From Lutispora sp. (lineage in GTDB: Bacteria; Bacillota; Clostridia; Lutisporales; Lutisporaceae), in assembly GCA_030834765.1 (NCBI GenBank), contig JAUQXG010000471.1, forward strand, positions 1-15,498: a stretch of 15,498 nt of DNA, written 5' to 3'. Within the stretch, counting starts at the first letter, position 1; every line of letters starts with the position of its first letter. The position numbers and the translations under genes are program-made. Below the pieces are notes generated by a model, which saw only the letters and a program-made list of their open reading frames with translations, was not told where the DNA came from and did no database searches. Below are positions 1 through 14,697 of the stretch, piece by piece.

Positions 1-1
1 G

Positions 2-1156
2 CTGAAAGGTATCCTCCTTGATGGAGAAGCTTGGAAGGTACTCCATGAGAAATATGCGGAGGAGCAGGGAGAATTAAGAAGCAAGCTCCTTGAGGAGCTG
101 GAGCAGGGCTTTGTTCAGGTAGACTTCTTTGGTGAGGAAAAGGTCATCGGCATAAATCTAGACAGCCATCAGCAGATGATAAAGGCATTTAAGAGCAAGG
201 GGATAAATCTGGAATCTACCTCCCACCGAGAGCTTTTGGAGTATAAGGACAAGAGCGAAATGGTAAAATTGTTCCTAGAGTACAGGAGAATGACAAAAGC
301 AATACAAAGCTTCCTTTCTCCCATCCCTCAATATATCAGTACCGCAACAGGCAGGCTGCATCCAAGCTATTATCAGCTAGGAGCGCACTCAGGGCGCTTT
401 GCCTGTGGAAATCCTAATATACAGCAAATACCAAGAGGAAAGGAGTTTAGGAATTGTTTCATACCTGAGAAAGGATACAAACTGATCATTGCAGATTATT
501 CTCAAATAGAGTTGAGAGTGGCAGCAGAGATTGCACAAGATAATACAATGCTAGAGGCTTATAGGAAGAACATGGATCTTCACGCATTAACTGCTTCTCT
601 TATCGCGAACAAACCTATTGAAAATATTAGTAAGCAAGAAAGGCAGGCCGCCAAGGCAGTGAACTTTGGATTGATTTATGCCATGGGAGCCAGAGGACTT
701 CAGGGTTATGCAAAGTCAGTATACGGAGTAGATTTGTCCCTTCAAGAGGCAGAACTTTTCAGAAGCAGATTCTTCAATGCCTACAAGGGAATCGCAAAAT
801 GGCATGATCGAATGAAAAATGCTTCAGATATAAGGGAAAGCAGGACACTAAGCGGCAGGCGTGTTTTATACAGAGAACAGCCTAACATTACAGTGCTTTT
901 AAATACGCCTGTACAAGGAACAGCAGCTGATATCGTGAAAAGAGCACTGGGGATGCTGCTTCCTGTGACCAAAAGATTGGGAGGCAGCATCATAGCTACT
1001 GTACATGATGAAATACTCCTTGAAGTACCAGCGTTTACAGCTCAGGAAGCAGCTAACGAATTGAAAAGCATTATGGAGGCAGCTGGAGCCTACTATCTCA
1101 AGAAGGTTCCCGTGATAGCTGAGACTGTGATTGCAGATTCCTGGGCAGAAAAATAA
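2..1156 (+). CDS. Family A DNA polymerase, C-terminal part (5' truncated by window edge)
   Basis: The frame is open from base 2, so the N-terminus lies outside the window. The visible ~384 residues are the palm/fingers half of a PolA-type template-directed DNA polymerase. Motif A is DYSQIELRVA (from base 494, with the metal-binding Asp). Motif B (O-helix) is RQAAKAVNFGLIYAMG (from 641, with the nucleotide-binding Arg, Lys and Phe). Motif C is VHDEILLEVP (from 1001, with the catalytic His-Asp-Glu). TPVQGTAADIVKRA (from 907) is also conserved. The O-helix text GLIYAMGARGL differs from the GIVYGIS-type text usual in housekeeping Firmicutes PolA, so I infer an accessory, phage- or element-type polymerase. 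Whether a 3'-5' exonuclease domain precedes it cannot be seen. No classical terminator follows the TAA stop. Confidence 0.93.
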   Translation: MKGILLDGEAWKVLHEKYAEEQGELRSKLLEELEQGFVQVDFFGEEKVIGINLDSHQQMIKAFKSKGINLESTSHRELLEYKDKSEMVKLFLEYRRMTKAIQSFLSPIPQYISTATGRLHPSYYQLGAHSGRFACGNPNIQQIPRGKEFRNCFIPEKGYKLIIADYSQIELRVAAEIAQDNTMLEAYRKNMDLHALTASLIANKPIENISKQERQAAKAVNFGLIYAMGARGLQGYAKSVYGVDLSLQEAELFRSRFFNAYKGIAKWHDRMKNASDIRESRTLSGRRVLYREQPNITVLLNTPVQGTAADIVKRALGMLLPVTKRLGGSIIATVHDEILLEVPAFTAQEAANELKSIMEAAGAYYLKKVPVIAETVIADSWAEK

Positions 1157-1231
1157 AGGAGCTTAGTTTATTCTTGCAAGAGAAACCTCCAGATATTCTT
1201 TAAGGCTACTAAGAGCTCGATTCTATAAAAG

Positions 1232-1285
1232 TTCATATTAAATTCATAACCAATTCACAGTGAGGACACATTGAACTCTTATAAT
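1232..1285 (+). promoter_or_regulatory. Promoter with three 11-bp-phased direct repeats (putative response-regulator box)
   Basis: TTCATA at 1232-1237, TTCATA at 1243-1248 and TTCACA at 1254-1259 recur at exactly 11-bp steps. A perfect TATAAT lies at 1280-1285, about 20 bp after the last repeat, and there is no good -35 hexamer. Direct repeats at 11-bp steps just upstream of a -10, replacing the -35, is the layout bound by OmpR/PhoB-family activators. That the response regulator at 2539 binds here is inference. The start codon at 1342 leaves a leader of about 50 nt. Confidence 0.6.
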
Positions 1286-1341
1286 CATATTGTAGCTCGG
1301 AATTAGCAGCTAAAGAATTGAAAAACAAGGAGGAAAATAAA

Positions 1342-2412
1342 ATGAAAAAGGTAGCCGCTCTTGGGATGGTAGTTGCGATGAGTGCAGCATTGTGTTTTAC
1401 TACATATGCAGACAACAGCAATAACACCACTGCAGTAAACAAATCAATTCGTATTAAGCAAGGAACTGTTACAATAACAAGTCCTAATGCAGTGAAACCA
1501 GAGACAAAAACAATAAAGGGGGCTGTCAAGGAAATCAACGACTTTGGAATCAAAGTCATTGCAGAAGACGGCAAAGTATATGTAGTCCCAACTGGAATGA
1601 TAGCTGACACAGCAGAATATGAATCCTTGAAGCTGAAGGTTGATGACAAAATCACAGTAGAAGGATTAGATTTCGAGAAGATAAAAGTTTCAAAAGAAAT
1701 CTCTTTTACACTAGATGAAAATGATGTAGCTTCAAAAGACATAATATATATAAGAGAAGCTGTGCCAGCCATAAAAGCAGTAAGAATAGAAGCTGGTGGC
1801 AATTTGATACAGAAGGTGGAAAAGGCCGATGGGATCAAACTGGATGTAAATGAATTCATATTTCCTGCGGAAAAAATAACTGCTAATGGTGTAACGATTG
1901 AGTTAGAAAAGCTCATGACAAAATTTGCAGAAACACAGGCAATCAAGATTGAAACAAAAACAGTGAAAGGTACAGTGAAAGAAATAAATGATTTTGGGAT
2001 AAAGATGAATAGTGAGGACAATAAGGTATATGTGATACCTACATCTATATTTGCAGAAACAGAAGATTTTAAGTCTATGAATCTTAAAGTGGGTGACAGC
2101 ATCACTGTAGAAGGTCCAGACTTTGAAAAAATGATGGGTAAAATAGAAAATCAAAAAGGGAGTGTCTTTTTTACCGCGCCAGCTATTGCAAGTGCTAAGG
2201 TAGAGTTTAAGGATTTGCAAGAGAATGCTTCTACAAATGGGCAAGAGATTATTGTTAAAAAGCTTGATAAAGCAGAAATGTTTAAATTAGATAAGGATGA
2301 CATCATGTTCCATGCAGAGAAAATCTCAGCTAATGGAGTAACAATAGATATTCAAAAATTAATGATGGAATTCCAAAAACCATTTCAGATTCATCTAAAA
2401 CCTAATAATTAA
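1342..2412 (+). CDS. Secreted protein with two tandem ~150-residue repeats
   Basis: I chose ATG 1342 because AAGGAGG at 1327-1333 sits 8 nt before it; an upstream in-frame TTG at 1318 would put the RBS inside the gene. The 356-residue product starts with a signal peptide (MKKVAALG, hydrophobic core, likely cleavage after TYA near residue 24). The mature part is an internal duplication. TKTIKGAVKEINDFGIK near residues 55-71 recurs as TKTVKGTVKEINDFGIK near 205-221. LKVDDKITVEG at 98-108 recurs as LKVGDSITVEG at 248-258. AEKITANGVTI near 176-186 recurs as AEKISANGVTI near 325-335. The GxVKEI...V(Y)V(I/V)P...LKVGDxITVEG pattern is beta-rich and resembles small OB-like DUF5666-type domains (inference). 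There is no catalytic motif, LPXTG, SLH or lipobox. It is upstream of a two-component system whose kinase shares part of the repeat, so it is probably a target or partner of that system. Specific function unknown. Confidence 0.85.
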   Translation: MKKVAALGMVVAMSAALCFTTYADNSNNTTAVNKSIRIKQGTVTITSPNAVKPETKTIKGAVKEINDFGIKVIAEDGKVYVVPTGMIADTAEYESLKLKVDDKITVEGLDFEKIKVSKEISFTLDENDVASKDIIYIREAVPAIKAVRIEAGGNLIQKVEKADGIKLDVNEFIFPAEKITANGVTIELEKLMTKFAETQAIKIETKTVKGTVKEINDFGIKMNSEDNKVYVIPTSIFAETEDFKSMNLKVGDSITVEGPDFEKMMGKIENQKGSVFFTAPAIASAKVEFKDLQENASTNGQEIIVKKLDKAEMFKLDKDDIMFHAEKISANGVTIDIQKLMMEFQKPFQIHLKPNN

Positions 2413-2464
2413 CAATTTGTGATACTTATAAATAGATTTAAATTTAGATATAGATGATATAAAG

Positions 2465-2509
2465 CCAAAATACAAGTACTTGAATTAAATTGCAGGTACT
2501 TGTATTTGG
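2465..2509. repeat. Inverted repeat / stem-loop between secreted-protein gene and response regulator
   Basis: The left arm at 2465-2482 (CCAAAATACAAGTACTTG) pairs with the right arm at 2493-2509 (CAGGTACTTGTATTTGG) around a 10-nt loop, with one bulged A and one G-U. The core CAAGTACTTG (2473-2482) is itself a perfect palindrome, and its near copy CAGGTACTTG (2493-2502) lies exactly 20 bp away. No T-run follows, so it is not a textbook terminator. It could be a partial terminator, an RNA-processing site or a double operator. Confidence 0.6.
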
Positions 2510-2538
2510 TATTTAAAAAGCTGAAAGGATTTGGCAAT

Positions 2539-3216
2539 ATGAATAAGTGTGTTTTACTTGCAGAAGACGAAAGCAGGATACGAGAAATTATGGCTGATTA
2601 TTTTAAAAATGAGGGGTTCACAGTTTTGGAAGCCGAGGATGGTAAGGAAGCTTTGGAAATACTGGAGACCCATAATGTTGATATGCTTATATTAGATATT
2701 ATGATGCCCAAGCTTGATGGATGGTCGGTTTGCAAAAGAGTACGCAATACTTCTGATGTCCCAATCATCATTTTAACTGCAAGAGAAGAAGAGGAAGACA
2801 AGTTATTAGGCTATGAGCTGGGAGCTGATGATTATGTTACAAAGCCTTTCAGTCCGAAAGTCCTTGTAGCGAAAGTGAAAACACTGATTAAAAGAATGGA
2901 AAAGCAGACAGGAGAAGGGGAGGAGCTAAATATCCAAGGATTATCAATAAATAAGCTTTCTCGTACGGTGATGCTTGATGAAAAACCCATTGAATTAGCG
3001 CATAAGGAATACGAGTTGCTCCTATATCTCGTGGAAAACAAGGGTAGGGTATTATCTCGTGACAAGATTTTGAATAGTGTTTGGGGTTATGACTATTATG
3101 GTGACCTTAGAACTGTGGATACACACATTAAAAAGCTTAGGGGAAAACTTGGAGATAGATCAGGATATATTGCAACGGTTATACGTTCTGGCTATAAATT
3201 TGAGGTGGGAAAATGA
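2539..3216 (+). CDS. OmpR/PhoB-family response regulator
   Basis: ATG 2539 is preferred because GAAAGGA at 2523-2529 is suitably placed; an upstream TTG at 2500 lies inside the stem-loop. The product is 225 residues, the normal size for the family. The receiver domain (about 1-118) has acidic pocket E9/D10, phospho-acceptor D53 in LILDIMMP, T80 in IIILTA and K102 in the TKPF motif. A winged-helix Trans_Reg_C domain follows (about 130-225), with KEYELLLYL, VDTHIKKLR and GYKF. It is a DNA-binding transcriptional regulator activated by phosphotransfer from the kinase encoded next; the genes overlap by 4 bases (ATGA), implying translational coupling. The repeats at 1232-1259 are a plausible target. 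Exact subfamily (PhoP, KdpE, ResD or other) cannot be fixed from sequence alone. Confidence 0.95.
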   Translation: MNKCVLLAEDESRIREIMADYFKNEGFTVLEAEDGKEALEILETHNVDMLILDIMMPKLDGWSVCKRVRNTSDVPIIILTAREEEEDKLLGYELGADDYVTKPFSPKVLVAKVKTLIKRMEKQTGEGEELNIQGLSINKLSRTVMLDEKPIELAHKEYELLLYLVENKGRVLSRDKILNSVWGYDYYGDLRTVDTHIKKLRGKLGDRSGYIATVIRSGYKFEVGK

Positions 3217-5144
3217 AGAACCGAAGTATTGTTTTTAAATTATTCATCCTTACAACTGTTTTGTTCTTATTGTTCATTGTGCTTTCAATGACTGCCCAGT
3301 CCTTATTTTTTGGGAAATTCTATATAGACAGGAAAGTAGATAAATTGCAAAAAAACCTTGAAGCATTTGCAAGAAATTATAACACTGGCAGTTGGTCGGA
3401 TGAGCAAATAAATACGAATACCAATTTGTTTATTGAAAACAACAATGCTCAAATGGCTATTCTGGATCAAAACGGTATGTTGAAGCACATGAATTCTTAT
3501 CAAATTACCATAAATACACCAGCAGGCGAAGAAATAATAATACCTATGAATAATATAATTTATTCTGATGGTTTGGAAAAGCTTAATCTCAAGGTAGGTG
3601 CGAAAGCTACTATTGAAGGTGCTTTTTTGAATTCTGATAATAAAATGGTTAGTATTTCAAGTATAGAAGCAAATAATTATAAATGGGAGAATCATAATAA
3701 ACTAGCAACTAATATGATAATGACTAAACCACCCTTTATTAGTGGGACTGCCGCAGCCCCAGCAGTAGATGCTAATATAAAATTTACTTATGTACCTATC
3801 GAAGGTCAGACAGAAGGGATATCGTCGAAAAAAGTGGAGTCTACACTAACCATTAGCAAGGCCGCTGGCTTTATCAGCATAAGAGCTGGAAAGATTGAGG
3901 GTGAAATAAAAAAGCTTGATATACCATCTCAAATGGATTATTTGCTGCCTTATCGAACAAGTATGCTTTTGAATGCGGTGGATAATTGGTTTTGGATATC
4001 CAAAACCAATGAAATAGAGCTGCAACCTAATAAAATTATTCGTTATCAATATATAGACCCGTCCAATGGAGTAAAAAATGCGATATTTGTTATGCCTTTG
4101 TTTAAGAATGGAAATATCAGCGAGATGTTATTTACAATGTCGTCCCTTCAGCCTGTTGATGAAGCAGTAGAAGCCATGAGAGATTATTATATCTATGGCT
4201 TTGCAGCCGCCTTTGTATTTATCATATTGCTTTCTTTTATGTATTCTAAAATGATAGCCAAGCCACTCATTAATATTAACAAGGTTGCACTTAAAATGTC
4301 GGAACTGGACTTTGCAGAGCAGCTAGCAGTGGTGTCCAATGATGAAATCGGAAGTTTATCCTCTAGTATCAATACCCTGTCAAGGAATCTAAAGGATAAG
4401 ATAGAGCAGCTGCATTTTGCCAATCAACAGCTGGTACAGGATATCCAAAAGGAAAGAAAACTGGAAATTATGAGAAAAGAATTTATCTCTGGAGTTTCCC
4501 ATGAGCTAAAGACCCCTCTTTCAATAATCAAGAGCTATACAGAGGGTATAAAGGATGGTGTATCCAAGGGTAAAGAAGATTACTATCTTGATGTGATAAT
4601 GGATGAATCTATGAAGATGGAAGGACTTGTGCGTAGTATGCTGGATTTATCGAAGTTAGAGTCTCAGAGCACTTCACTAGATATTGAGTCCTTTGACATC
4701 AATGAAATGGTAGACGAAGTAAGAATGAAACTTAATTATTTATCAGAAGAGAAGGGGATAGAAGTTCATTTACAATGTGCTGATAAAGGTTTATATGTGA
4801 AAGCTGATAAGGGAAGAATGGAGCAGGTGCTTAACAATCTTATTAGTAATGCATTACTTTATACTCAAAAGGACGGATATGTAGAAATAAGCTTATTGAA
4901 AGTGGATAATAAGATTAAAGTGATGGTAGAAAATTATGGAGAGATCATTCCAGAGGACAAATTGGATAAAATTTGGGATCGATTTTACAGATTAGATGAG
5001 TCCCGTGATCGTAAAACAGGAGGGACCGGTCTCGGCTTATCTATTGTTAAGAATATTCTTCAATTGCACCAGAGTCAATATGGAGTAAGTAATACAGAAA
5101 AGGGCGTATTGTTCTATTTTTATTTGGAATCTGCAATAGAATAA
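3213..5144 (+). CDS. Membrane sensor histidine kinase with large extracytoplasmic domain
   Basis: The 643-residue partner of the response regulator starts at an ATG overlapping that gene's stop. TM1 is about residues 8-30 and TM2 about 325-346, enclosing a ~295-residue outside domain. HAMP follows, then HisKA with phospho-acceptor H430 in SHELKTPLSIIKS, and HATPase_c with N-box NNLISNA (N546) and glycine box GGTGLGL (603-609). The usual DxGxG box reads VENYGE (N574, G576), a variant seen in other VanS/YkoH-like kinases as far as I recall. Residues 98-136 of the outside domain align gap-free with the repeat unit of the secreted protein upstream; by my count 13 of 39 positions are identical to its first copy, including GxxxxxxP and LxLKVxxKxTxEG. 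A close family name is not evident. Signal unknown; envelope-related sensing is inferred from the domain sharing. Confidence 0.93.
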   Translation: MKNRSIVFKLFILTTVLFLLFIVLSMTAQSLFFGKFYIDRKVDKLQKNLEAFARNYNTGSWSDEQINTNTNLFIENNNAQMAILDQNGMLKHMNSYQITINTPAGEEIIIPMNNIIYSDGLEKLNLKVGAKATIEGAFLNSDNKMVSISSIEANNYKWENHNKLATNMIMTKPPFISGTAAAPAVDANIKFTYVPIEGQTEGISSKKVESTLTISKAAGFISIRAGKIEGEIKKLDIPSQMDYLLPYRTSMLLNAVDNWFWISKTNEIELQPNKIIRYQYIDPSNGVKNAIFVMPLFKNGNISEMLFTMSSLQPVDEAVEAMRDYYIYGFAAAFVFIILLSFMYSKMIAKPLININKVALKMSELDFAEQLAVVSNDEIGSLSSSINTLSRNLKDKIEQLHFANQQLVQDIQKERKLEIMRKEFISGVSHELKTPLSIIKSYTEGIKDGVSKGKEDYYLDVIMDESMKMEGLVRSMLDLSKLESQSTSLDIESFDINEMVDEVRMKLNYLSEEKGIEVHLQCADKGLYVKADKGRMEQVLNNLISNALLYTQKDGYVEISLLKVDNKIKVMVENYGEIIPEDKLDKIWDRFYRLDESRDRKTGGTGLGLSIVKNILQLHQSQYGVSNTEKGVLFYFYLESAIE

Positions 5145-5247
5145 GCATGATGTCAGGCATCGAGTATAAGAACTTATTATGAAAGAATCTATGCATTTAT
5201 CACTGTGATGGCGAAGTGTATCATAAGTAACAGGGTTTTTTTATTTG

Positions 5248-5277
5248 TTGAAAGTAGAAAAATAACGTATCTTTAAT
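5248..5277 (+). promoter_or_regulatory. Candidate sigma-A-type promoter for the L,D-transpeptidase
   Basis: TTGAAA (5248-5253) and TTTAAT (5272-5277) are separated by 18 bp; each differs from consensus at one position. It lies ~110 bp upstream of the chosen start and just after a T7 tract (5236-5242) that may mark the end of the kinase transcript, though the hairpin before that tract is weak. Confidence 0.4.
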
Positions 5278-5386
5278 ATGTTGTGTGATAAGATCTGCAT
5301 ACTTAGGCTTAAAATCAAAAATACAATCATAGAATTAGTTATCACGTTTAAATCAAATGTATTCTTGATGAAGGGTGCAAATCAGT

Positions 5387-6781
5387 ATGCTGAATATTAA
5401 GATAGAAAAGCTTTTTAGAAAAGATTTTAAAAGAAATAGTATTATTTTAATAGCTTCAATAGTACTAATATATTTATTCATTTCATTATACTTTGTGAAT
5501 CATTGCTTTTTTAATACAGTGATAAATGGAGTAGATGTCTCATTAAAAGCACATGATGATGTAGATCATATCATTACAAGCTATATTAAAAATTATAAGT
5601 TACAGTTAATTGGAAGAAATGGAGAAATCGAAGAAATCATAGGACGAGATATAGAAATGCAATACAATGAAAAAAATAGCATTGATAAGATATATCAAAT
5701 ACAAAATTCATTTAGATGGGCAAGTTCATTATCAAAGAAGCAAAGGTATCATGTAAATAATTTATTTCTTTATAATAAGGATAAATTAGAAATTAAAATA
5801 AATGAATTAAATTGTTTAAATAAAAACATTATAGAACCTAAAAATGTAAGTTTTAAGTATTCTGATGGTTCATATGAAGTGATTGAAGAAGTATATGGAA
5901 ATAAGATATATAAAGATAAATTATACGAAGCTGTAGAAGCAAGTATATTAAAAGGAAAATCAAAATTAGATTTAAATCAAAATCATTGTTACGAAAACCC
6001 AAGATACACTTTAAGCTCTAATAAAACTCCTGAAACTAAGAATTTGCTTAATAAGTATGTATCAGCAAAAATTACTTATATATTTGGAAGTGAAAATGAA
6101 ATACTAGATGCAAATACGATAAATCAATGGCTTGATGTTGATGAAAATTTAGAAGTAATAATAAATCAAAAATCAGTTAAGGAATATGTGCAAGGATTGA
6201 GTGAAAAATATGACACTGTTGGAATAGCAAGAAAAATTAAAACATCTACAAATAAAGTAGTAGAAGTTAAGGGCGGATTTTATGGATGGAGAATCAATTG
6301 CGCTGATGAAACAAAAGCATTAACAGAAAATATAAGACTTGGTGAAATACTAGAAAAAGAACCTATATATACACAAAAGGCTATCATTAGGGGCAAAGAT
6401 GATATAGGTAATACTTATGTAGAAATCAACATAACAAGGCAGCATTTATGGTTTTATAAAGATGGAAAGCTTATAGCTCAGGGTGCTATCGTAACAGGTA
6501 ATCCCAATAGAGGAAATTCAACTGAGCTTGGAATCTATATGCTTAATTATAAACAAAAAGGATCAACTTTAGTAGGTCCGAATTATGAAGCTGAAGTAAC
6601 TTACTGGATGCCTTTTAACGGGAACATAGGAATACATGATGCAAGCTGGAGGTATTCTTTTGGTAGAGATATATATAAGAGAAATGGAACTCATGGATGT
6701 GTAAATGTCTCATTATATTTAGCTAAAAAAATTTTTGATAATATAGAAGATGGAACCCCTGTTATTTGTTATGAAGAATAG
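5387..6781 (+). CDS. L,D-transpeptidase (YkuD) with PG-binding N-terminal region
   Basis: ATG 5387 is preferred; AAGGGTG at 5371-5377 can serve as its RBS, whereas the in-frame GTG at 5375 overlaps that RBS. The product is 464 residues: a short cytoplasmic N-terminus, one membrane anchor (about 18-38), then an external region. A long middle part, including a GVDVSLK segment and a GGFYGWRIN segment, fits the PG_binding_4/VanW-like architecture that precedes YkuD in clostridial L,D-transpeptidases. The catalytic YkuD domain begins near VEINITRQHLWFYKDGK. It has H417 in GIHDASW and the signature THGCVN with H436 and nucleophile C438. It should form 3-3 cross-links in peptidoglycan or attach proteins outside the membrane. 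The gene is visibly more AT-rich (many ATA, AAA, AAT codons) than the polymerase or kinase genes, perhaps from different ancestry. It appears to be its own transcription unit. Confidence 0.93.
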   Translation: MLNIKIEKLFRKDFKRNSIILIASIVLIYLFISLYFVNHCFFNTVINGVDVSLKAHDDVDHIITSYIKNYKLQLIGRNGEIEEIIGRDIEMQYNEKNSIDKIYQIQNSFRWASSLSKKQRYHVNNLFLYNKDKLEIKINELNCLNKNIIEPKNVSFKYSDGSYEVIEEVYGNKIYKDKLYEAVEASILKGKSKLDLNQNHCYENPRYTLSSNKTPETKNLLNKYVSAKITYIFGSENEILDANTINQWLDVDENLEVIINQKSVKEYVQGLSEKYDTVGIARKIKTSTNKVVEVKGGFYGWRINCADETKALTENIRLGEILEKEPIYTQKAIIRGKDDIGNTYVEINITRQHLWFYKDGKLIAQGAIVTGNPNRGNSTELGIYMLNYKQKGSTLVGPNYEAEVTYWMPFNGNIGIHDASWRYSFGRDIYKRNGTHGCVNVSLYLAKKIFDNIEDGTPVICYEE

Positions 6782-6798
6782 AGATGAAAGAAAATATA

Positions 6799-6833
6799 TT
6801 GACAAAAAAGCATGTAAAAGGTAATCTTATAAT
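6799..6833 (+). promoter_or_regulatory. Promoter elements upstream of marR-family gene
   Basis: A perfect TTGACA (6799-6804) and a perfect TATAAT (6828-6833) lie before the MarR gene, but the spacer is 23 bp, longer than a standard promoter. TTGACA also pairs at 17 bp with the weaker TAATCT (6822-6827). Which combination is used is unclear. The palindrome at 6835-6846 begins right after the TATAAT, a good position for repression. Confidence 0.4.
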
Positions 6834-6834
6834 A

Positions 6835-6846
6835 GTGTAAGTACAC
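6835..6846. promoter_or_regulatory. Putative MarR operator, copy 1 (GTGTA-AG-TACAC)
   Basis: Perfect inverted repeat with 5-bp arms, GTGTA AG TACAC, between the promoter and the MarR start codon. The same arms recur at 7323-7334 in front of the next gene. MarR-family dimers bind short palindromes and commonly repress their own gene; assigning this site to this MarR is inference. Confidence 0.55.
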
Positions 6847-6868
6847 GATATCGGAAAAAGGTGATAAA

Positions 6869-7306
6869 ATGGATAAAAATATTTATGATAAAAAACCCTC
6901 TGTCTGCAATTGTCTTAATATACGAAGAGCTTCACAAGCAATTACTGAAGTTTACGATGAATTTCTTGCACCAAGTGACTTGAAGATAGGTCAGTTTTCA
7001 CTGCTTAAACATATATACAGATTAGGCCCTGTAAGTGTCAGTGATTTAGCCCTCAGCATCAGACTAGACAGAACTACCCTTGTGAGAAATCTTAAACCTT
7101 TGGAAGAAAGAGGCTTTGTAACAGATATAGCAGCAGAAGGTAGTAGAAATCGACAACTGAAACTAACAGATCAAGGAATTCAAACCTATCAATCAGCAGA
7201 ACAGCTTTGGGCAAAAGCACAAAGTTTTCTTGAAGAATATTTAGGTGAGGATAATATAAATACGTTTACAACATTACTTTCTAAAATTGAGGCTTTAGTG
7301 CCTTAA
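6869..7306 (+). CDS. MarR-family transcriptional regulator
   Basis: 145 residues, the usual MarR length, with RBS AAAGGTG a few bases before the ATG. A winged helix-turn-helix spans about residues 55-99: VSVSDLALSIRLDRTTLVRNLKPLEERGFV, split as helices near 55-83, followed by a basic wing (GSRNRQLKLT). Flanking helices form the dimerisation region. Two cysteines, C13 and C15, sit in CNCLNIRRAS near the N-terminus, so thiol or metal sensing is possible but unproven. The palindromes before this gene and before the next suggest that it represses itself and the QueG-like gene. Small phenolic or oxidant ligands are common for the family; the ligand here is unknown. Confidence 0.93.
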   Translation: MDKNIYDKKPSVCNCLNIRRASQAITEVYDEFLAPSDLKIGQFSLLKHIYRLGPVSVSDLALSIRLDRTTLVRNLKPLEERGFVTDIAAEGSRNRQLKLTDQGIQTYQSAEQLWAKAQSFLEEYLGEDNINTFTTLLSKIEALVP

Positions 7307-7322
7307 ATTTTTATTGTGTAAC

Positions 7323-7334
7323 GTGTATATACAC
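7323..7334. promoter_or_regulatory. Putative MarR operator, copy 2 (GTGTATATACAC)
   Basis: Perfect 12-bp palindrome in the 109-bp gap between the MarR gene and the QueG-like gene, sharing both 5-bp arms with the site at 6835-6846 and differing only in the central two bases. A further GTGTAA half-site lies just upstream (7316-7321). No convincing -35/-10 pair could be assigned around it. Confidence 0.55.
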
Positions 7335-7415
7335 TATTGCATAAAATATATGCTAGATGGTCTTTTTCATATATGAATGAAATCAGTACGCTAAAATTAT
7401 TTTGGAGGTCTTGTA

Positions 7416-8261
7416 ATGGAAAGTTTAATAAAAAATGAAATAAAAAGATATTTCCGAGAAAGCAAGGAGAATTGGTTTGAAGAGATTCATGGCAATTATT
7501 TTGAAGAGCCTGTTATAAAATTTGCATCTCCAGAAGATTCTTTGTTTCAAGAGTATAAAAAAGTAATTGGGGATCATCACTTTACGCCAAAGGAAGCTTT
7601 TGAATTAGCTTTTGGTGAAGATAGTTATAAAGGGGGAACGGTTATAAGCGTTGTATTACCTATAAATGAAAAGATTAGAAAAAGCAATAGAATACAAACG
7701 AAATGGGCTTCAAGAGAGTGGGTATTAACTCGTACTTTTGGAGATGAAATATTTATGAAAGGATTTGCTAAGTATTTAGAGAGTTATTTAAATAAAATGG
7801 GGTATAAAACTGTAGCTCCTTATGTTTCTGAATGGTTTCAAGTCCACAGAACAGCTTCAGGACCAACATCAAATTGGTCAGAACGTCATATCGCTTATGC
7901 AGCTGGACTGGGGACCTTTTCCATAAATGATGCTTTTATTACTGAAAAAGGAATTGCAATCAAATTAATTTCATTTGTAACTGAATTAAAGCTTAGACCA
8001 GATGTTAGAGTGGCTGTAAGTCATATCGAAAACTGCTTGCTATGCAGCAAAGGTATTTGTGGAGCTTGTATAAATCGATGCCCAGTCAATGCAATATCTA
8101 AAGCAGGACATGACAAGATAAAATGTATGCAATATGTTTATGGCGAAGAATCAAGAAAATTGGCTGAATCCTATGGCGCAAGTCCAAAGGCAGGATCAGG
8201 GTGTGGTTTATGTCAAACTGGGGTACCTTGCGAAGGCAAAAATCCAACTAAGGTCGTCTAG
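7416..8261 (+). CDS. QueG-like 4Fe-4S reductase-family protein
   Basis: 281 residues with RBS GGAGG just before the ATG. It belongs to the epoxyqueuosine-reductase-like superfamily. AAGLGTFSINDAFITEKG (about 162-179) matches the conserved AGLG...N...T segment, and a ferredoxin-like cluster follows: C207, C210, C215, C218 and C222-Pro. C237 and a late C263, C266, C272 group could complete a second cluster. It is much shorter than true QueG (~380 residues) and lacks the C-terminal HEAT-like extension, so tRNA queuosine function should not be assumed; B12 binding is uncertain. Position next to MarR and the shared palindrome suggest an inducible redox enzyme, for example in detoxification or stress. 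A strong terminator follows at 8298. Substrate unknown. Confidence 0.8.
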   Translation: MESLIKNEIKRYFRESKENWFEEIHGNYFEEPVIKFASPEDSLFQEYKKVIGDHHFTPKEAFELAFGEDSYKGGTVISVVLPINEKIRKSNRIQTKWASREWVLTRTFGDEIFMKGFAKYLESYLNKMGYKTVAPYVSEWFQVHRTASGPTSNWSERHIAYAAGLGTFSINDAFITEKGIAIKLISFVTELKLRPDVRVAVSHIENCLLCSKGICGACINRCPVNAISKAGHDKIKCMQYVYGEESRKLAESYGASPKAGSGCGLCQTGVPCEGKNPTKVV

Positions 8262-8297
8262 TATTCAGAATGAATTGGAATATTGACTTTTGATTAC

Positions 8298-8334
8298 AGC
8301 CATCTTTTTTGAATGGAAATAGAAGATGGCTTTT
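8298..8334 (+). terminator. Intrinsic terminator after the QueG-like gene
   Basis: Perfect 9-bp stem: AGCCATCTT (8298-8306) pairs with AAGATGGCT (8323-8331) around a 16-nt loop, and a short T tract follows (8331-8334). It lies between convergent genes and abuts the stop of the minus-strand exonuclease gene, so it may also stop that transcript, though on the minus strand no T-run follows the hairpin. Confidence 0.8.
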
Positions 8335-9079
8335 ATACAGATTGAAATTGATTTGTTCTTCCCATCACATAAGCCAGCTTAATGATGGATTGCTCTTCTT
8401 CTGTCATTTGTCTGTCATACATCTTCTCAAATTGCTTTATTAGCTTATCTGTATCAAGCTTTGTTTTTTTATTGATCCCTCTTGACCTGCTTTCTTGATT
8501 TAAATGATATAAAGCGGGCTTCATATCATAGCTATAAATATGCTTGAAAACTTCAGTTGTATAGTAAGCATCATGAAAAGCATCATGAAATTTATTGCCA
8601 AGAGGAATATTTAATAGTTCTACAGCATTACGCAAACCCACACTTGTTCCTTTGGGGCAGTGCAGATACTTAGAAGCATAAATCTGAATATTGATATATT
8701 CTTTTGGGATGATAGATACATCCAATTTATGATATTTTATGTTTCTCAGCAATTCCTTCATATCGGATATACCCCACATACAAAAAACATTTTTATTACC
8801 TATAAATTGAGCAAATTCTTTATAGACTTCTTTAAAGGGTTTTGCAGAAGCTAAGCTTTCTATTGTTATACCAGTAAGCTGTTTAACAAAGGGGTGCATA
8901 TCTATATACAATTCAGGCTTTACCAGTCTATCAAAAGTTGATACGATTTGAAGTTTTTCATCCAATTGCAGCGCACCAATTTGAACTATTTCAAAAGGGC
9001 ATTTGGAATTTATGAAGCTTTTATTTTCTTCAAAATCCCAGGCTTGATTAAATTCTAAGTCAAATACGATATAATTCAT
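8333..9079 (-). CDS. DEDDh-family 3'-5' exonuclease (ERI1/KapD-like)
   Basis: 248 residues; on the minus strand an AGGAGT RBS (9087-9092) precedes the ATG. The five DEDDh residues are visible: D7 and E9 in FDLEFNQAW, D106 in WGISDMKELL, and H165 with D170 in FHDAFHDAYYT. The single-domain layout with the FDLE(F/A) opening and a late HDAxxDA motif resembles ERI1/KapD-type exonucleases that trim RNA or DNA 3' ends, rather than a PolC or DnaQ proofreading subunit. The ~75-residue C-terminal tail is charged and not assigned to a domain. It is monocistronic, divergent from the MATE gene and convergent with the QueG-like gene. Substrate unknown. Confidence 0.9.
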   Translation of the reverse strand: MNYIVFDLEFNQAWDFEENKSFINSKCPFEIVQIGALQLDEKLQIVSTFDRLVKPELYIDMHPFVKQLTGITIESLASAKPFKEVYKEFAQFIGNKNVFCMWGISDMKELLRNIKYHKLDVSIIPKEYINIQIYASKYLHCPKGTSVGLRNAVELLNIPLGNKFHDAFHDAYYTTEVFKHIYSYDMKPALYHLNQESRSRGINKKTKLDTDKLIKQFEKMYDRQMTEEEQSIIKLAYVMGRTNQFQSV

Positions 9080-9267
9080 TTTGCTTACTCCTATATATGT
9101 TTCATACTTCTATTGTTCCATCAGGTTAAAAAAATACTCAAAACTGCACGATGCATCATGTTATAAGTATATATCATAAATTATATTTTTATAATGTACT
9201 TCTCTATGTTATAATTCAATCGACTAGGCACGATTGACAATATCATAGTGCATCAGGAGATGAGTTC

Positions 9268-10614
9268 ATGAAAGGTGATATGACACAAGGAAATACATCA
9301 AAGATTTTAATAACCTTTACAATTCCCATGGTGCTGGGTAATATATTTCAGCAACTCTATAATACAACGGATGCAATTATAGTAGGTAGATTTATCGGTA
9401 AGAATGCATTGGCCGCAGTGGGTGTGGCAAATCCCTGTATGTCCATTGCGATTTTTCTTATATTTGGTATTTGTATGGGTACCTCTGTACTTATGTCACA
9501 GCTTTTTGGAGCCGGAAAGTATGGAGATCTAAAGAAAGAGGTTTCTACAGCTCTCATTGCTGGGATAATTTTTACTTTAGTAATTTCGGTTATTTTTATT
9601 TTCTTGTCTAGAGGAATTCTTGTATTAACAGGCACCCCTAAAGAGATTTTAGATGATGCTGATATATATTTGAAAATAATTTTTGGCGGATTAATCTTTT
9701 CGTTTTTATATAACTTTTACTCATCTGCACTGAGATCAGTAGGAGATTCCAAAACCCCTCTCATATTTTTAGTGATCTCTTCGATTCTAAATGGAGTTTT
9801 ATGTGTAATATTTGTTGGCATTTTAAATACTGGGGTAGCTGGTTCTGCAGTGGCAACAGTGATTGCACAAGGCGTATCCGCTATACTATGTATTGCATAT
9901 GTTTATATGAAAATTCCGTTGATCAAGATTAATCTAAATGAATTGATTCTAGATAAACCTTTATTGAAACGAACAATACAATATAGCTGGATAGCAGCAT
10001 TGCAGCAGTCTATATTATACATAGGAAGACTATTGGTTCAAGGCGTTGTGAACCCTTTTGGGACAAATGCCATAGCAGCATATAATGCTGTAACAAGAAT
10101 TGATTCATTTGTACTAGCACCTGGAGATAGCTTTGGGGTATCTGTCGCTACCTATTCTGCTCAAAATAGCGGAGCTGGGAAGTTTGAAAGAATAACCGAA
10201 GGTTATAAAAAGAGTAACATCATTATAACTATTTACTGTGTTGCTACTGCTCTAATTGTATTCTTAATGGCGGAGCGGATCATGGGTTTGTTTGTATCAA
10301 GTTCTGAAAAGGATGTTATATTAACAGGTGTGAGATATCTGAAGCTAATGTCAGTCTTCTATGTTCTTTCAGGCTTTTGCAACATCTTTCAGGGCTTATT
10401 CAGAGGTGTTGGAAAACTTCGCATCACACTTATTGCCACAATCATGCAAATAACTGTAAGAGTTGCATTATCTTATATGTTGGCACCATATCTAGGAATT
10501 ATAAGTGTTTGCTATGCAGTTGGTGCTGGATGGGTGTTGATGATGATCTATGAAGGTATGGCATGTAAAAAGTATTTTTCGGAAAATAAAAAATTACAAC
10601 AAGCACAAGGCTAG
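9268..10614 (+). CDS. MATE-family multidrug/sodium antiporter
   Basis: 448 residues, typical MATE size, with AGGAG 8 nt before the ATG. Two MatE halves, each about six membrane helices, give 12 predicted segments. The N-terminal text DMTQGNTSKILITFTIPMV and the IFQQLYNTTDAIIVGRFIG segment are characteristic of clostridial MATE exporters, as are ALRSVGDSKTPL near the middle and the GLFRGVGKLRITL motif in the second half. It should export cationic drugs or metabolites from the cytoplasm using a Na+ or H+ gradient; the substrate cannot be read from sequence. A TATAAT at 9210-9215 in the 188-bp divergent gap, with only a weak -35, could be its promoter. It appears monocistronic; no regulator of its own is adjacent. 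Confidence 0.95.
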   Translation: MKGDMTQGNTSKILITFTIPMVLGNIFQQLYNTTDAIIVGRFIGKNALAAVGVANPCMSIAIFLIFGICMGTSVLMSQLFGAGKYGDLKKEVSTALIAGIIFTLVISVIFIFLSRGILVLTGTPKEILDDADIYLKIIFGGLIFSFLYNFYSSALRSVGDSKTPLIFLVISSILNGVLCVIFVGILNTGVAGSAVATVIAQGVSAILCIAYVYMKIPLIKINLNELILDKPLLKRTIQYSWIAALQQSILYIGRLLVQGVVNPFGTNAIAAYNAVTRIDSFVLAPGDSFGVSVATYSAQNSGAGKFERITEGYKKSNIIITIYCVATALIVFLMAERIMGLFVSSSEKDVILTGVRYLKLMSVFYVLSGFCNIFQGLFRGVGKLRITLIATIMQITVRVALSYMLAPYLGIISVCYAVGAGWVLMMIYEGMACKKYFSENKKLQQAQG

Positions 10615-10789
10615 GTGTTTAGACGATAGTTGAAGTCTAATGTATTCCCAGTATGAAGGCCTTTAAAAGCTTATCTAACGTGATGTTGCAGCGTTGTAAT
10701 AGGAAGAGTTACAATATAAATATCATGATGTTATATACAGTAAAACAAAATCAGTAGATGTCTAAGTTTATTATAAGGAGCGATCATAG

Positions 10790-11815
10790 ATGGATAAAAT
10801 AAGATTGGGTAGGACCAATTTAATGGTGACAAGAAGTAGCTTTGGAGCTTTGCCTATACAAAGAGTCTCCTTTGAAGAAGCTAAAAGGATTTTCCGTAAG
10901 GCTTATGAAAATGGAATAAACTTTTTTGATACCGCAAGAATCTATACAGATAGTGAAGAAAAAATAGGCTATTCTCTTTCAGATGTAAGAAAGGACATTA
11001 TAATAGCTACAAAAAGCCCTGCAAATGATAAAAAAACTTTATTAGAGAATCTTGAAACAAGTTTAAAAAATTTAAAAACTGATTATGTAGATATCTTACA
11101 ATTACATAATCCTGCTGAGCTTTCTAATCCAGAAGATCCCCAAGGCCTTTACGCCGGGTTACTTGAAGCAAAGAAAAAAGGGATGATTCGCTTTATAGGA
11201 ATTACCAATCATAGAATAAACATTGCTTTAAATGCAGCAGCTTCAGGACTGTATGATACAATACAATTTCCTTTGAGTTCGTTATCTGCTGATACAGATT
11301 TAAAACTTATTGAAGAATGTAAACAAAGGGATATTGGGGTTATTGCCATGAAAGCTCTCTCGGGTGGACTCATAACCAATGCAGCTTCTACCTTTGCATT
11401 CCTAAGACAATTTGATAATGTTGTACCTATATGGGGAATTCAAAGAGAAAGTGAATTGGACGAATTTGTTGCGCTAGAGAAAAATCCACCAAAACTAGAT
11501 GAAGCCATGTGGTCTATTATCAATAAGGATCGTGAAGAACTAGCAGGTGACTTTTGCCGTGGCTGTGGCTATTGTATGCCTTGTCCTGCTGGAATTAATA
11601 TTCCTACTGCTGCAAGAATATCTCTTCTTTTAGGAAGAGCTCCTTATGAAGGATTTTTACAAGATGAATTTAAGGAAAAGATGCAGCTTATTCATAACTG
11701 TATAGAATGTGGAAACTGTAAAGAACACTGTCCATATAAGCTTGATACCCCAAATCTTTTAAAGAGAGAGCTTAAAAATTATGAAGCGTTTTATTCTAAT
11801 CATAAAAATAGTTAG
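10790..11815 (+). CDS. Aldo/keto reductase with C-terminal two-cluster 4Fe-4S domain
   Basis: 341 residues, RBS AAGGAG before ATG. The N-terminal TIM-barrel carries the catalytic tetrad D47 (NFFDTA), Y52 (RIYTDSE), K75 (ATKS) and H106 (LQLHN). The C-terminal quarter adds two ferredoxin-type motifs: C256, C259, C262, C265-Pro and C304, C307, C310, C314-Pro. This AKR-ferredoxin fusion is common in anaerobes and is thought to couple carbonyl reduction to iron-sulfur electron transfer; substrate unknown. The order is AKR then 4Fe-4S, and the protein is a little shorter than the ~370-380 residues often seen, mainly through a compact barrel. It is transcribed alone, with 175 bp of intergenic DNA before it and a convergent minus-strand gene after it. 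Confidence 0.93.
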   Translation: MDKIRLGRTNLMVTRSSFGALPIQRVSFEEAKRIFRKAYENGINFFDTARIYTDSEEKIGYSLSDVRKDIIIATKSPANDKKTLLENLETSLKNLKTDYVDILQLHNPAELSNPEDPQGLYAGLLEAKKKGMIRFIGITNHRINIALNAAASGLYDTIQFPLSSLSADTDLKLIEECKQRDIGVIAMKALSGGLITNAASTFAFLRQFDNVVPIWGIQRESELDEFVALEKNPPKLDEAMWSIINKDREELAGDFCRGCGYCMPCPAGINIPTAARISLLLGRAPYEGFLQDEFKEKMQLIHNCIECGNCKEHCPYKLDTPNLLKRELKNYEAFYSNHKNS

Positions 11816-11904
11816 TAGTTGTGTTGAAACATTAGGATAGTACAGCAAAAAATAAATCTAAGAGGATTTCAAGCAGGTGGAAGTGACTGTATACTAAAAT
11901 CGGA

Positions 11905-12795
11905 CTAGTAAGTTCTCAGTATAACTGCAATAATAACTAGAATTGCCATGTGTGCAGGGTAAAAAATATAGCCTACATATTTATTGAGTCTAATCCAGCT
12001 TTGATTAATACTTTCTAACCCAAGAATCGGAATTAATGCAAGGACTCCCCATGCATTAAAGTAGTATCTTTGCAGCTGCGATAATCCATTCTGAAAGTTA
12101 AGCTGGCTCCATACATAATTGAAATTGAAAAGATTGCTCCAAAATAGGGTGGATGAATATGCGGAGTTGAATAGAGCAACTCTGTAATAACCATGAAGCA
12201 GGTATAATAGTACAATGCTTATTACGGCAGCTACTGTCTTTTCCTGAAAGATGTGAAATAATAAAACTAAGGCTAATGCCAACAAGCCATATTCTACATA
12301 AAAACCTTTTACAATGAAGCTTATTACTTCAGGAAGAACCACTATTATAGCAGCCAGGACTAGTAAGAATATACCATACAAAAGGTTTTTATAATTTCTG
12401 TCTTTCATAAAATTCTTAATTTTTAAGATTCCCATATCATAAACATAAAGCAAACCTATAGCTGCTACAAACGTAAACAGTACATTAAAATGAATAGGGT
12501 TAAATTCAAGATTGGGGTTAAAAAAAGAATAGGGTACCTGAGTGATCAGAGCAAATAGGGAAAGTCTTAAAACATATTTTTTGAGATTAGATGTTCGCGA
12601 ATAACCAATGGCAATCTGATAGGCGAAAATAGGAAAGGCCAATCTTCCTATAATCCTAAAGAGCATCTCATTTGGAAAATACATATATCCAATATGATCA
12701 ACAAGCATCGTTACTAATGCCAGCAGCTTTAGCATATCATTTCGACGTACACTTGTTTGCAGTACCTTTTTTTCAACAACTAATGTTTCCATCAT
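11905..12795 (-). CDS. TraX-family membrane protein
   Basis: 296 residues. A very G-rich RBS (GAGGGGG on the minus strand) lies 6 nt before the first of two adjacent ATG codons, so the start could be 12795 or 12792. After a short cytoplasmic N-terminus the protein is almost all membrane helices, about eight or nine. The first block LKLLALVTMLVDHIGYMYF plus RIIGRLAFPIFAYQIAIGY is the TraX signature, with conserved Asp-His and Gly-Arg-Pro. TraX of F plasmids N-acetylates pilin, but most Firmicutes homologues are chromosomal and unlinked to conjugation, as here; the family is related to membrane acyltransferases. A role in acetylating a surface polymer is plausible, not shown. Confidence 0.9.
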   Translation of the reverse strand: MMETLVVEKKVLQTSVRRNDMLKLLALVTMLVDHIGYMYFPNEMLFRIIGRLAFPIFAYQIAIGYSRTSNLKKYVLRLSLFALITQVPYSFFNPNLEFNPIHFNVLFTFVAAIGLLYVYDMGILKIKNFMKDRNYKNLLYGIFLLVLAAIIVVLPEVISFIVKGFYVEYGLLALALVLLFHIFQEKTVAAVISIVLLYLLHGYYRVALFNSAYSSTLFWSNLFNFNYVWSQLNFQNGLSQLQRYYFNAWGVLALIPILGLESINQSWIRLNKYVGYIFYPAHMAILVIIAVILRTY

Positions 12796-12831
12796 AATTT
12801 GCCCCCTCTATAACTTGTACTGTTCCAAATA

Positions 12832-12860
12832 ATTATATCATTTATCATTTACTATGACAG
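12832..12860 (-). promoter_or_regulatory. Candidate promoter for the TraX-family gene
   Basis: On the minus strand, CTGTCA (12855-12860, four of six matches to TTGACA) is followed after 17 bp by a perfect TATAAT (12832-12837), about 36 nt upstream of the start codon. Confidence 0.45.
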
Positions 12861-13009
12861 AACTTTTAGAAGAAATATTTAAACAAGCCTATGAGGAGAA
12901 CCCCTGGAGTATGACTAGCAGTTTGATAATATGCTATTATTTTTATGCGAATCATGCTCCAATTCTAATATGTATTTTATCAAGGTTTAAGCATTCCTCA
13001 ACACTGTAA
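12854..13009 (+). other. Unrecognised 51-codon ORF, possibly a gene remnant
   Basis: ATG 12854 to TAA 13009 encodes a 51-residue peptide beginning MTELLEEIFKQAYEENPWS, a coding-like amphipathic stretch that turns into hydrophobic, AT-rich text after about residue 23. There is no ribosome binding site, it overlaps the TraX promoter at one end and the acetyltransferase stop at the other, and I recognise no family. It may be the 5' stub of a lost gene or chance. It is the only candidate content in the 191-bp gap between the two minus-strand genes. Confidence 0.2.
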
Positions 13010-13529
13010 TAAACTCATGCAGTATTTGGTGACTTATTTTGAAACCTTTACCTTGATAGAATTTTAATGCATTATCGTTTCCATTTGATACAAAGATAAA
13101 CAAATCACTTATTGACTTAAATGAATTTAACCAATCCATAGACTTTTCAAACAAAGCACTGCCAATGCCAGTATTACGATAACTCTCTTTTATATAAAAC
13201 TGAGAAAGACAACCTACATCTTCGCTTTTCACAGAATCAAAATCAAAGAAATTTACAGGATCAAGAGTAGCAAATCCACCAGAATAGGTATTCTTTGCAG
13301 AAATATTGCTATAGGCATATCCAACAATTTCATTCTTATCTTTAGCTGCTATGATAAAGTTGGCTTTAGCACTTTTGAGAGATGGAACCATTCTAGTCTC
13401 AAAACTCATGTTATCAAACCACTCAGGATGAATATAGGCTTTAGATTTTTGATAAGTCATTAATTCATTGCATAAATCCTTCACGCAAATAATATTATCA
13501 TCCGAAATAATTTCATAATGGATACTCAT
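12987..13529 (-). CDS. GNAT-family N-acetyltransferase
   Basis: Start at ATG 13529 (MSIHYEII...), preceded on the minus strand by AGAGGAAG at a good distance; longer in-frame starts reach back over the divergent promoter and into the HxlR gene and are rejected. The 180-residue product has the GNAT fold: the acetyl-CoA-binding motif A is FYIKESYRNTGIGSALFEK with R118, G121 and G123, and motif B is NALKFYQGKGF with the usual Asn and Tyr. It transfers acetyl groups to an amine; the acceptor (amino acid, antibiotic, polyamine or protein N-terminus) is unknown. It is divergent from the HxlR regulator with a 145-bp shared control region, so HxlR may regulate it. Confidence 0.9.
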   Translation of the reverse strand: MSIHYEIISDDNIICVKDLCNELMTYQKSKAYIHPEWFDNMSFETRMVPSLKSAKANFIIAAKDKNEIVGYAYSNISAKNTYSGGFATLDPVNFFDFDSVKSEDVGCLSQFYIKESYRNTGIGSALFEKSMDWLNSFKSISDLFIFVSNGNDNALKFYQGKGFKISHQILHEFITVLRNA

Positions 13530-13567
13530 ATGAATCTTCCTCTCTAAAATAAATTTAAGAAACATGT

Positions 13568-13595
13568 TTGATTGATCAATCAGATTAGATATAAT
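13568..13595 (+). promoter_or_regulatory. Promoter overlapped by a 14-bp palindrome upstream of hxlR-type gene
   Basis: TTGATT (13568-13573), a 16-bp spacer and a perfect TATAAT (13590-13595) form a good promoter for the plus-strand operon. A perfect 14-bp palindrome, TGATTGATCAATCA (13569-13582), covers the -35, as expected for a repressor operator. It lies in the region shared with the divergent acetyltransferase gene. HxlR proteins bind palindromes and often control divergent genes; the assignment is inference. Confidence 0.55.
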
Positions 13596-13674
13596 TGTAT
13601 CAGTTATCATTATAATAACAAGTATGCAGTATTTTCTGTTTAAGAAAGTAAAAACTGAGTATAGGAGTGATTTT

Positions 13675-14022
13675 ATGAGTGACCAAGCATTATATAAAAG
13701 CAATCTTGATAACTGTCCTTTAACATTTGCTTTAAATTTTATTGGCGGAAAGTGGAGATTGCCGATTATTTGGGCATTATATAAAAATGGGACTATGCGA
13801 TATAATGAGTTAAAAAGAAGTATTGAGGGAATTACAAATATGATGCTAACTCAATCATTAAAGGAATTAGAAGTGAATGGTATCATTAATCGAAAGCAAT
13901 TTATGGAAGTGCCGCCGAGAGTTGAGTATTCACTGACTGATAACGGAGAAAGTCTTATTCCTGCTCTGAAAGCATTAGCTAGTTGGGGTAGTAAAATAAA
14001 AAACAGTATTCATTCAAAATAA
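13675..14022 (+). CDS. HxlR-family transcriptional regulator
   Basis: I chose ATG 13675, with AGGAG at 13663-13667 seven bases upstream, over an in-frame ATG at 13624 that lacks an RBS. The 115-residue protein has the family signature: N-terminal C14 in NCPLTFAL, then IGGKWRLPIIWAL, and the winged helix MRYNELKRSIEGITNMMLTQSLKELEVNG with wing VPPRVEYSLT. HxlR proteins are dimeric winged-helix regulators; the conserved N-terminal Cys responds to electrophiles or disulfide stress in some members (HypR, YodB). It is first in a likely operon with the YbjQ-family and PC4-like genes (gaps of 27 and 35 bp). Confidence 0.93.
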   Translation: MSDQALYKSNLDNCPLTFALNFIGGKWRLPIIWALYKNGTMRYNELKRSIEGITNMMLTQSLKELEVNGIINRKQFMEVPPRVEYSLTDNGESLIPALKALASWGSKIKNSIHSK

Positions 14023-14049
14023 TATAAAATATAAACTGGAGGGATTATC

Positions 14050-14376
14050 ATGCTAGTGACAACAACGCCTAATATAGAAGGCAAAAAAATCACAGAGTAC
14101 AAAGGAATTGTTTTCGGTGAAGTAATTTCAGGCGTAGATTTCATTAAGGATTTTACGGCGGGGTTGACCAACTTCTTTGGAGGTCGTTCCGGATCCTATG
14201 AACAAGAATTGATAGAAGCAAGAGTAGCGGCATTAAAGGAAATGGAGAGAAGAGCAGAGTCACTTGGTGCCAATGCAATTGTTGGAGTGGATATTGACTA
14301 TGAGGTATTGGGACAGGGCGGTAACATGCTGATGGTAACTGCTTCCGGAACAGCAGTAAGAGTTGAAATGGACTAG
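14050..14376 (+). CDS. YbjQ/UPF0145-family protein
   Basis: 108 residues with strong RBS CTGGAGGG before the ATG. It matches the YbjQ (DUF74, heavy-metal-binding-like) family: opening [23 protein letters not shown], central [13 protein letters not shown], then [17 protein letters not shown] and a C-terminal GTAVRVE strand. Members are small cytoplasmic proteins forming a pentameric ring-like fold; the name comes from a structural resemblance to metal-binding proteins, and metal binding is not established for most. There are no cysteines. It is the middle gene of the HxlR operon. Biochemical role unknown. Confidence 0.92.
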
Positions 14377-14411
14377 GTTAACCATATTTATAAATGAAGA
14401 AGGTGGATATC

Positions 14412-14633: not shown

Positions 14634-14666
14634 TAGTTCAGCTATAATAGGAAATGAAAGATGAGG

Positions 14667-14697
14667 GCTTCCACTAGATATTCAGTGGAGGCTTTTT
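14667..14697 (+). terminator. Intrinsic terminator closing the HxlR operon
   Basis: A 9-bp stem (GCTTCCACT at 14667-14675 with AGTGGAGGC at 14684-14692, one G-U) and an 8-nt loop are followed directly by TTTTT (14693-14697). Confidence 0.88.

Follow-up and report, generated by a model that had tools for sequence, protein, structure and literature searches.

Does the sensor histidine kinase of a three-gene locus in Lutispora sp. share a domain with the secreted protein encoded upstream of it, and what might such sharing serve? The locus lies entirely on the + strand of a 15,498-nucleotide stretch (assembly GCA_030834765.1, contig JAUQXG010000471.1, positions 1..15,498), which was analysed at its full length and is called the window here. 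The kinase contains HisKA and HATPase_c domains and the regulator a receiver and a winged helix, the make-up of a two-component system, and the best explanation of the locus, as read from its sequence, is a three-gene signalling unit composed of a secreted protein, a response regulator and a kinase. Its genes, and the segments compared, are the following.

1342..2412, + strand, secreted protein of 356 amino acids: a signal peptide (judged by eye: MKK..., a hydrophobic run, TYA-DN), then two repeats
1510..1677, + strand, barrel of repeat 1 (residues 57-112), by BLASTP and hhalign; the PF00924 match in the protein covers 2 stretches
1855..1911, + strand, final strand proposed for repeat 1 from the alignment (residues 172-190, FPAEKITANGVTI), following a variable stretch
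1960..2127, + strand, barrel of repeat 2 (residues 207-262), by Pfam PF00924, BLASTP and hhalign
2305..2361, + strand, final strand proposed for repeat 2 from the alignment (residues 322-340)
2539..3216, + strand, response regulator of the OmpR/PhoB type, with Response_reg and Trans_reg_C
3213..5144, + strand, sensor histidine kinase of 643 amino acids: membrane helix, ectodomain (~31-322), membrane helix, HAMP, HisKA, HATPase_c; helices judged by eye
3492..3692, + strand, putative small barrel inserted in the kinase ectodomain (residues 94-160), by alignment, hhalign and insert-model searches
3894..3932, + strand, conserved strand after a variable linker (kinase residues 228-240, VEGEIKKLDIPSQ type), with a near-invariant G and P

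A domain shared by the kinase and the secreted protein

By the comparisons made here, the kinase and the secreted protein share a domain. The initial annotation had aligned kinase residues 98-136, without gaps, with residues 70-108 of the first repeat copy, and its coordinates and its count of 13 identities in 39 positions were exact; the second copy (residues 220-258) was identical at 12/39 positions. Taken alone, 13/39 is mildly unusual, being matched in 1% of 500 shuffled kinase ectodomains, and this is the one point in favour of a chance or compositional resemblance. Such a resemblance is nonetheless refuted at the sequence level and hardly credible, since the Smith-Waterman score of 81 exceeded those of all 1000 shuffles (best 68), and hhalign matched kinase residues 93-160 to the secreted barrels with a probability of 97.5% and a raw score of 55.3, whereas 200 column shuffles of the same segment gave a mean of 9.2 and a maximum of 15.7. 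The match also held (96.1%) when the two sets were disjoint, with seven secreted barrels that excluded the window's clade on one side and 47 Bacillales kinases on the other, and it held in the insert-model searches described below. A single BLASTP comparison of the two proteins gave an E value of 2e-5. Kinase residues 85-160 scored 60.8 in hhalign (97.9%), and elsewhere in the ectodomain residues 29-92 and 240-325 reached only 0.1-0.2% against the secreted barrels. The shared domain that had been claimed was therefore upheld by profile-profile comparison.

The claim that the kinase carries the whole repeat unit stood only in part: what it carries is a barrel of ~65 residues and not the 150-residue repeat, and the homologues from Geosporobacter and Alkaliphilus have a single barrel. 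The boundaries of the match are better set at kinase residues ~94 to ~160. The further stretch to residue 88 in the BLAST alignment is likely sensor scaffold (strand NGMLKHMN), because a similar strand occurs in kinases without the insert (L022, P0016). At the other end, secreted-protein residues 172-190 align with kinase residues ~140-160 once the intervening variable stretch is omitted.

Nature and distribution of the kinase insert

Aligned kinase ectodomains (57 rows, without the insert-less kinases and some near-duplicates) showed a beta-strand-like insert (~94-160) after the first sensor strand, followed by a variable linker and a conserved strand (~228-240). The secreted protein scored above the Pfam cut-off for the MscS beta-domain PF00924 (31.8 vs 20.2), as did its homologues P0004 (39.0), P0005 (31.5) and that of R. 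cellobioparum (25.5). Among seven distant secreted homologues L006 alone passed the cut-off, L127 fell below it, and L005, L121, L122, L123 and L128 had no match. The kinase insert matched nothing in Pfam above cut-off (PF00924 14.9 to 16.1 vs 20.2), and only one of the 57 ectodomain rows reached PF00924 at E up to 0.1. The kinase segment is named a small beta-barrel because the secreted protein resembles PF00924; on sequence grounds it looks like such a barrel inserted in a sensor domain. Other small beta-barrel or OB-like domains are DUF5666, S1 and DUF1344; unlike MscS, the secreted protein is not a channel, and the kinase stays below the PF00924 cut-off. Among the 60 of 89 matches to solved structures listed for the kinase profile, only the kinase core was covered, never the ectodomain, and no sequence relative of the secreted family was found among solved structures.

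The two barrels may be related by a circular permutation, the first strand of the secreted barrel corresponding to the last of the kinase insert, a reading favoured by the hhalign scans but not by a hidden Markov model (HMM) test. In the first scan, kinase residues 218-234 placed before the insert were the best of 202 prefixes (69.1 vs 61.2 for the native strand), and in a second scan the permuted order was again the best prefix (59.9 vs 53.7 for the native strand). In the plain HMM test the native preceding strand outscored the permuted one for 12/13 secreted proteins; compared with five control prefixes, the native strand was better in 13/13 and the permuted one in 12/13. Kinase strand 228-240 may complete the barrel in permuted order.

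An HMM of the insert was used to search 80 of 163 confirmed kinase relatives. The insert was present in 67/80 and absent from 13, most of the 67 matching by construction, as the model was built from the 57-row alignment. A tree was made from 44 of 48 chosen kinase cores (L039, L082, L083 and L125 had no anchor motif, and P0013 replaced the R. cellobioparum kinase). Eight insert-less kinases formed one group inside its clostridial side, which, provided that the midpoint root is correct, is most simply explained by loss of the insert.

Profile searches and gene order

A profile built from 11 secreted proteins matched only two places in the window's whole genome at 1e-5, one in the secreted gene itself and one in the kinase next to it (3381-3680, E = 4.5e-6). 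The single secreted sequence, searched against its own genome at E up to 1, reached the kinase (0.016) and one more weak place (0.17). In R. cellobioparum, with E values up to 1 allowed, the profile found the adjacent kinase (2.1e-4) besides the secreted gene and nothing more, and in Geosporobacter the adjacent kinase was the best match outside the secreted gene (0.014; next 0.28). Kinases of L123, L125, L126 and L127 were matched in the fetched regions (1.9e-8 to 9.3e-7).

For the reverse search, an insert model made from Bacillales kinases alone was run against 2632 proteins, and matches shorter than 480 residues were considered. Fourteen of the 15 secreted entries (L012 and L126 being the same locus) ranked above every other protein of that size but one, with the window protein at 8.4e-9; the one exception, a 476-residue protein truncated at the end of its locus, is probably another kinase. 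The fifteenth entry, L123, obtained 0.3 and stood below three unrelated proteins. The same model detected the insert in 14/15 kinases to which it was applied, all except the insert-less P0016.

Genomes of the class (391), of the order (22), of Geosporobacter's order (393) and of Ruminiclostridium's order (58) were searched with the profiles; in part of these searches no more than five candidates were scored for each genome. The secreted-protein profile matched at 1e-5 in 11 genomes. In all nine that encode a full-size secreted protein (the window's own, G394, G395, G512, G519, G523, G809, G817 and G841), the secreted gene, the regulator and an insert kinase were consecutive, so that the co-occurrence in related genomes on which the initial annotation depended was found in 9/9. 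Three of them (G394, G395 and G809) had first been reached through their kinases (L005, L006 and L012, the last two from one species), while G512, G519, G523, G817 and G841 were reached by the secreted-protein search alone, the protein of G519 (P0019) being part of the profile. Two more database pairs, P0003 with P0009 and P0004 with P0010, probably lie on the same contig each. As for the other two of the 11 genomes, the G642 match was a kinase, and that of G451 was a 137-residue lipoprotein, with the system absent from the 9 kb fetched. This lipoprotein (L124:5665-6078, - strand) amounts to a pared-down secreted protein with a single barrel, and no kinase lies in those 9 kb.

These searches bear on an incidental sharing, in which a common extracellular small-barrel module would have been used for separate jobs in the secreted product and in the kinase insert. 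We consider this somewhat unlikely. A free-standing common module would not be expected to occur in full-size secreted proteins only beside the kinase (9/9), nor would its profile be expected to match nothing else in the window's own genome (1e-5) or in R. cellobioparum (E up to 1). In its favour stands the G451 lipoprotein, a single barrel away from the system, and further points are given below with the regulator site and with the kinases that have no partner.

Upstream repeat and probable regulation of the secreted gene

A direct repeat and two other elements flank the secreted gene.

1232..1275, + strand, 4 x 11-bp direct repeat (TTCATA/TTCATA/TTCACA/GACACA, each + 5 bases), 22/24 positions of the TTCAYA consensus; proposed binding site of the regulator
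1280..1285, + strand, TATAAT, probable -10 element after the repeat, from the sequence; not reported by a simple promoter scan
2468..2507, + strand, hairpin between the secreted and regulator genes (fold -17.4 kcal/mol, z -4.4); not listed by a terminator scan

The repeat at 1232-1275 was the best TTCAYA-type site in the window. An ungapped 4 x 11-bp repeat was present upstream of the secreted gene in 8/8 loci (window, L005, L006, L121, L122, L123, L127 and L128), 93-120 bp before the reading frame, and was the best-scoring one of its own locus in all eight (in L121 it tied with others at 17). A -10-like element followed at the same spacing in most loci, though not in L128. The consensus was derived from the window, L005 and L006, and the independent cases are therefore L121, L122, L123, L127 and L128; the scores of L005 and L006 barely exceeded or equalled the simulated maxima. 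The stand-alone lipoprotein gene of L124 had no such site (score 15, rank 18), a further point for incidental sharing.

In the window's own genome a three-unit pattern written from the window site had no other match at fewer than 2 mismatches. With 3 mismatches allowed it gave 31 matches vs 22 for a backward control, and weak genome matches therefore mean little. A second imperfect 11-bp repeat run was seen in this genome at G000:C200:735-773 (- strand), as two overlapping matches with 2 mismatches.

A weight model made from nine sites, including that of L125, found sites in L007 (26.9) and L009 (29.7), neither of which was used to build it, against a maximum of 18.5 in 100 simulations. The L007 site precedes a secreted metallopeptidase-like gene and the L009 site a thioredoxin-like gene. 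L007, L009 and L125 come from clostridia that have the insert kinase without a barrel protein, and their upstream genes encode secreted proteins of zinc-metallopeptidase-like type (L007:4058-5212, L009:2749-5201 and L125:6843-7907), mostly below the Pfam cut-off; L009 holds two such genes in a row, with the repeat site far upstream, and L009:2749-3672 is above the cut-off for PF15890. In Bacillales only weak matches to the regulator site were obtained (L008 7.1 and L010 10.2; null maximum 18.5), and the site is not claimed for them. By eye, a gene for an HtrA/DegP-like, membrane-anchored serine protease comes right after the insert kinase in Priestia taiwanensis (L008:7759-9175); the weak 11-bp repeat before it is the one scoring 7.1, below the null maximum, and the arrangement recalls secretion-stress systems.

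As the conserved upstream repeat is likely the regulator's site, the secreted protein is probably the target of the adjacent regulator, and we regard this as a strong inference. The initial annotation had named it a target, a status for which the repeat now supplies evidence. The hairpin, which L005 and L006 also have in the corresponding position (three loci folded, with the window), may act as a partial terminator that lowers read-through into the regulator gene.

Readings of the shared domain

The reading that we favour, tentatively and as somewhat less than probable, is that sensor and secreted protein share an extracellular ligand within a feedback loop. The kinase would sense an extracellular state by means of the small beta-barrel in its sensor domain, and the regulator would bind the 4 x 11-bp site and switch on the first gene. 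The product of this gene would be exported, bearing one or two barrels of the kinase-insert family, and these could recognise the kind of extracellular ligand that the sensor binds. By dealing with or soaking up the signal, the product would then shut off the response as negative feedback. A narrower version, which we hold to be doubtful, makes the output a soluble copy of the sensor's receptor module that would titrate the signal outside the cell as a receptor decoy, the copy in the kinase possibly being permuted.

Several results weigh against this reading, and the comparison of pairs, the shared conserved residues and the scarcity of barrel-protein neighbours speak against a pair-specific link in particular. 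Secreted proteins and kinases from the same locus were no more alike than mixed pairs (mean 66.8 vs 65.7, p 0.36), in a comparison that used P0013 in place of the R. cellobioparum kinase and included the inferred pairs P0003/P0009 and P0004/P0010. The positions conserved in both families (N, F, P, L, G, G) look structural, a point that incidental sharing accounts for, no conserved charged residue was common to the two families, and a conserved ligand pocket common to both was sought and not found. In fetched sequence, 64/67 insert kinases had no barrel-protein neighbour (the three with one are L005, L006 and L012), and kinases of L007, L009 and L125 adjoin secreted metallopeptidase-like proteins without a barrel, those of L007 and L125 with the same type of site directly upstream. 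The partnerless inserts, and a site placed before a metallopeptidase-like gene instead, are likewise points for incidental sharing. Finally, the secreted-protein profile did not match the fetched kinases in five insert-kinase genomes (L007, L008, L010, L013 and L016), where, as in one further genome with an insert-less kinase, it found nothing better than 0.045 (in one genome) and left the fetched kinase unmatched; of six kinases at loci with the secreted gene, it detected three (L123, L126 and L127) and missed three (L121, L122 and L128). A recent duplication or gene conversion between the neighbouring genes was also considered and was unsupported, own pairs being no closer.

A direct control of the kinase by an accessory protein, as in CpxP/CpxA, would have the exported barrels dock on the kinase barrel or ectodomain and hold the kinase off (or on) until stress removes them. 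We think this unlikely. It fits the gene order and the likely co-regulation, and insert and partner are absent together: the eight insert-less kinases form one tree group, and none of the 13 insert-less loci had a secreted barrel gene in the fetched sequence, with little upstream DNA at L039 and L052 among them, as also at L065. This joint absence may nevertheless reflect a single lineage event, and no co-variation by pair was seen. The sharing, moreover, would be left unexplained, as an accessory protein can do without any domain in common with its kinase. There are precedents for docking: CpxP makes physical contact with CpxA, from which stress displaces it (PMC4160245), and QseG, whose gene lies between qseE and qseF, binds and activates QseE (PMC12691602).

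Neighbouring genes

An L,D-transpeptidase gene (YkuD, with PG_binding_4) comes after the kinase in the window (5375-6781); the window's three top-scoring repeat sites are elsewhere. Downstream of the unit, the window encodes a small protein of 108 residues (14050-14376) that is similar to one of 121 residues encoded just upstream of the secreted gene in L127 (2209-2574). In Ruminiclostridium-type genomes a MacA-like protein, an ATP-binding cassette (ABC) ATPase and an FtsX-like permease were recognised by eye downstream of the kinase (L006:8073-11021, L127:6813-9001), and several Bacillales insert kinases adjoin sugar ABC transporter permease-like genes upstream of the regulator, also by eye (L037, L046, L048, L050, L058, L062 and L079). 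Upstream genes were also sorted automatically, and crudely, into three classes (secreted, membrane, cytosolic); this sorting got known cases such as L005 wrong and was not used.

Comparison with known systems and significance

Presumably the kinase is comparable to sensor kinases with a PAS-like or Cache ectodomain, having a single ectodomain between two membrane helices, then HAMP; it differs from them by the small barrel inserted in that ectodomain. The nearest precedent for homology between a sensor domain and proteins acting on the signal it senses is BlaR1, as it shares its ligand-binding fold with class D beta-lactamases, secreted enzymes that act on this signal (PMC5957439). The likeness is that sensor and target domains are homologous here as well. 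The differences are that no common ligand-binding residues were found, the shared conserved positions looking structural, and that BlaR1 is a metalloprotease receptor with a known ligand, whereas the present sensor is a histidine kinase and no enzyme motif is known here. In Staphylococcus aureus the enzyme induced by BlaR1, BlaZ, is of class A.

As in CpxP-CpxA and QseG-QseE, the locus pairs a two-component system with an exported or envelope protein that is encoded alongside it or under its control; the signal peptide (by eye) and the conserved upstream site would fit a CpxP-type protein. YycH/YycI-WalK is another case of accessory proteins of a two-component system. To our knowledge, such accessory proteins do not share the sensor module of their kinases. 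The present arrangement was not recognised as described in the literature searched, most subscription papers falling outside that search.

The ligands of many extracellular kinase sensor domains are unknown. Here the ligand of such a sensor can be sought with the adjacent secreted protein, because this protein is soluble, bears a signal peptide, carries the same module and is probably the kinase's target; it should also be easy to make. The regulator site could be used to look for further targets. If the output is indeed a receptor decoy, the locus would provide a two-component system with a simple means of shutting itself off.

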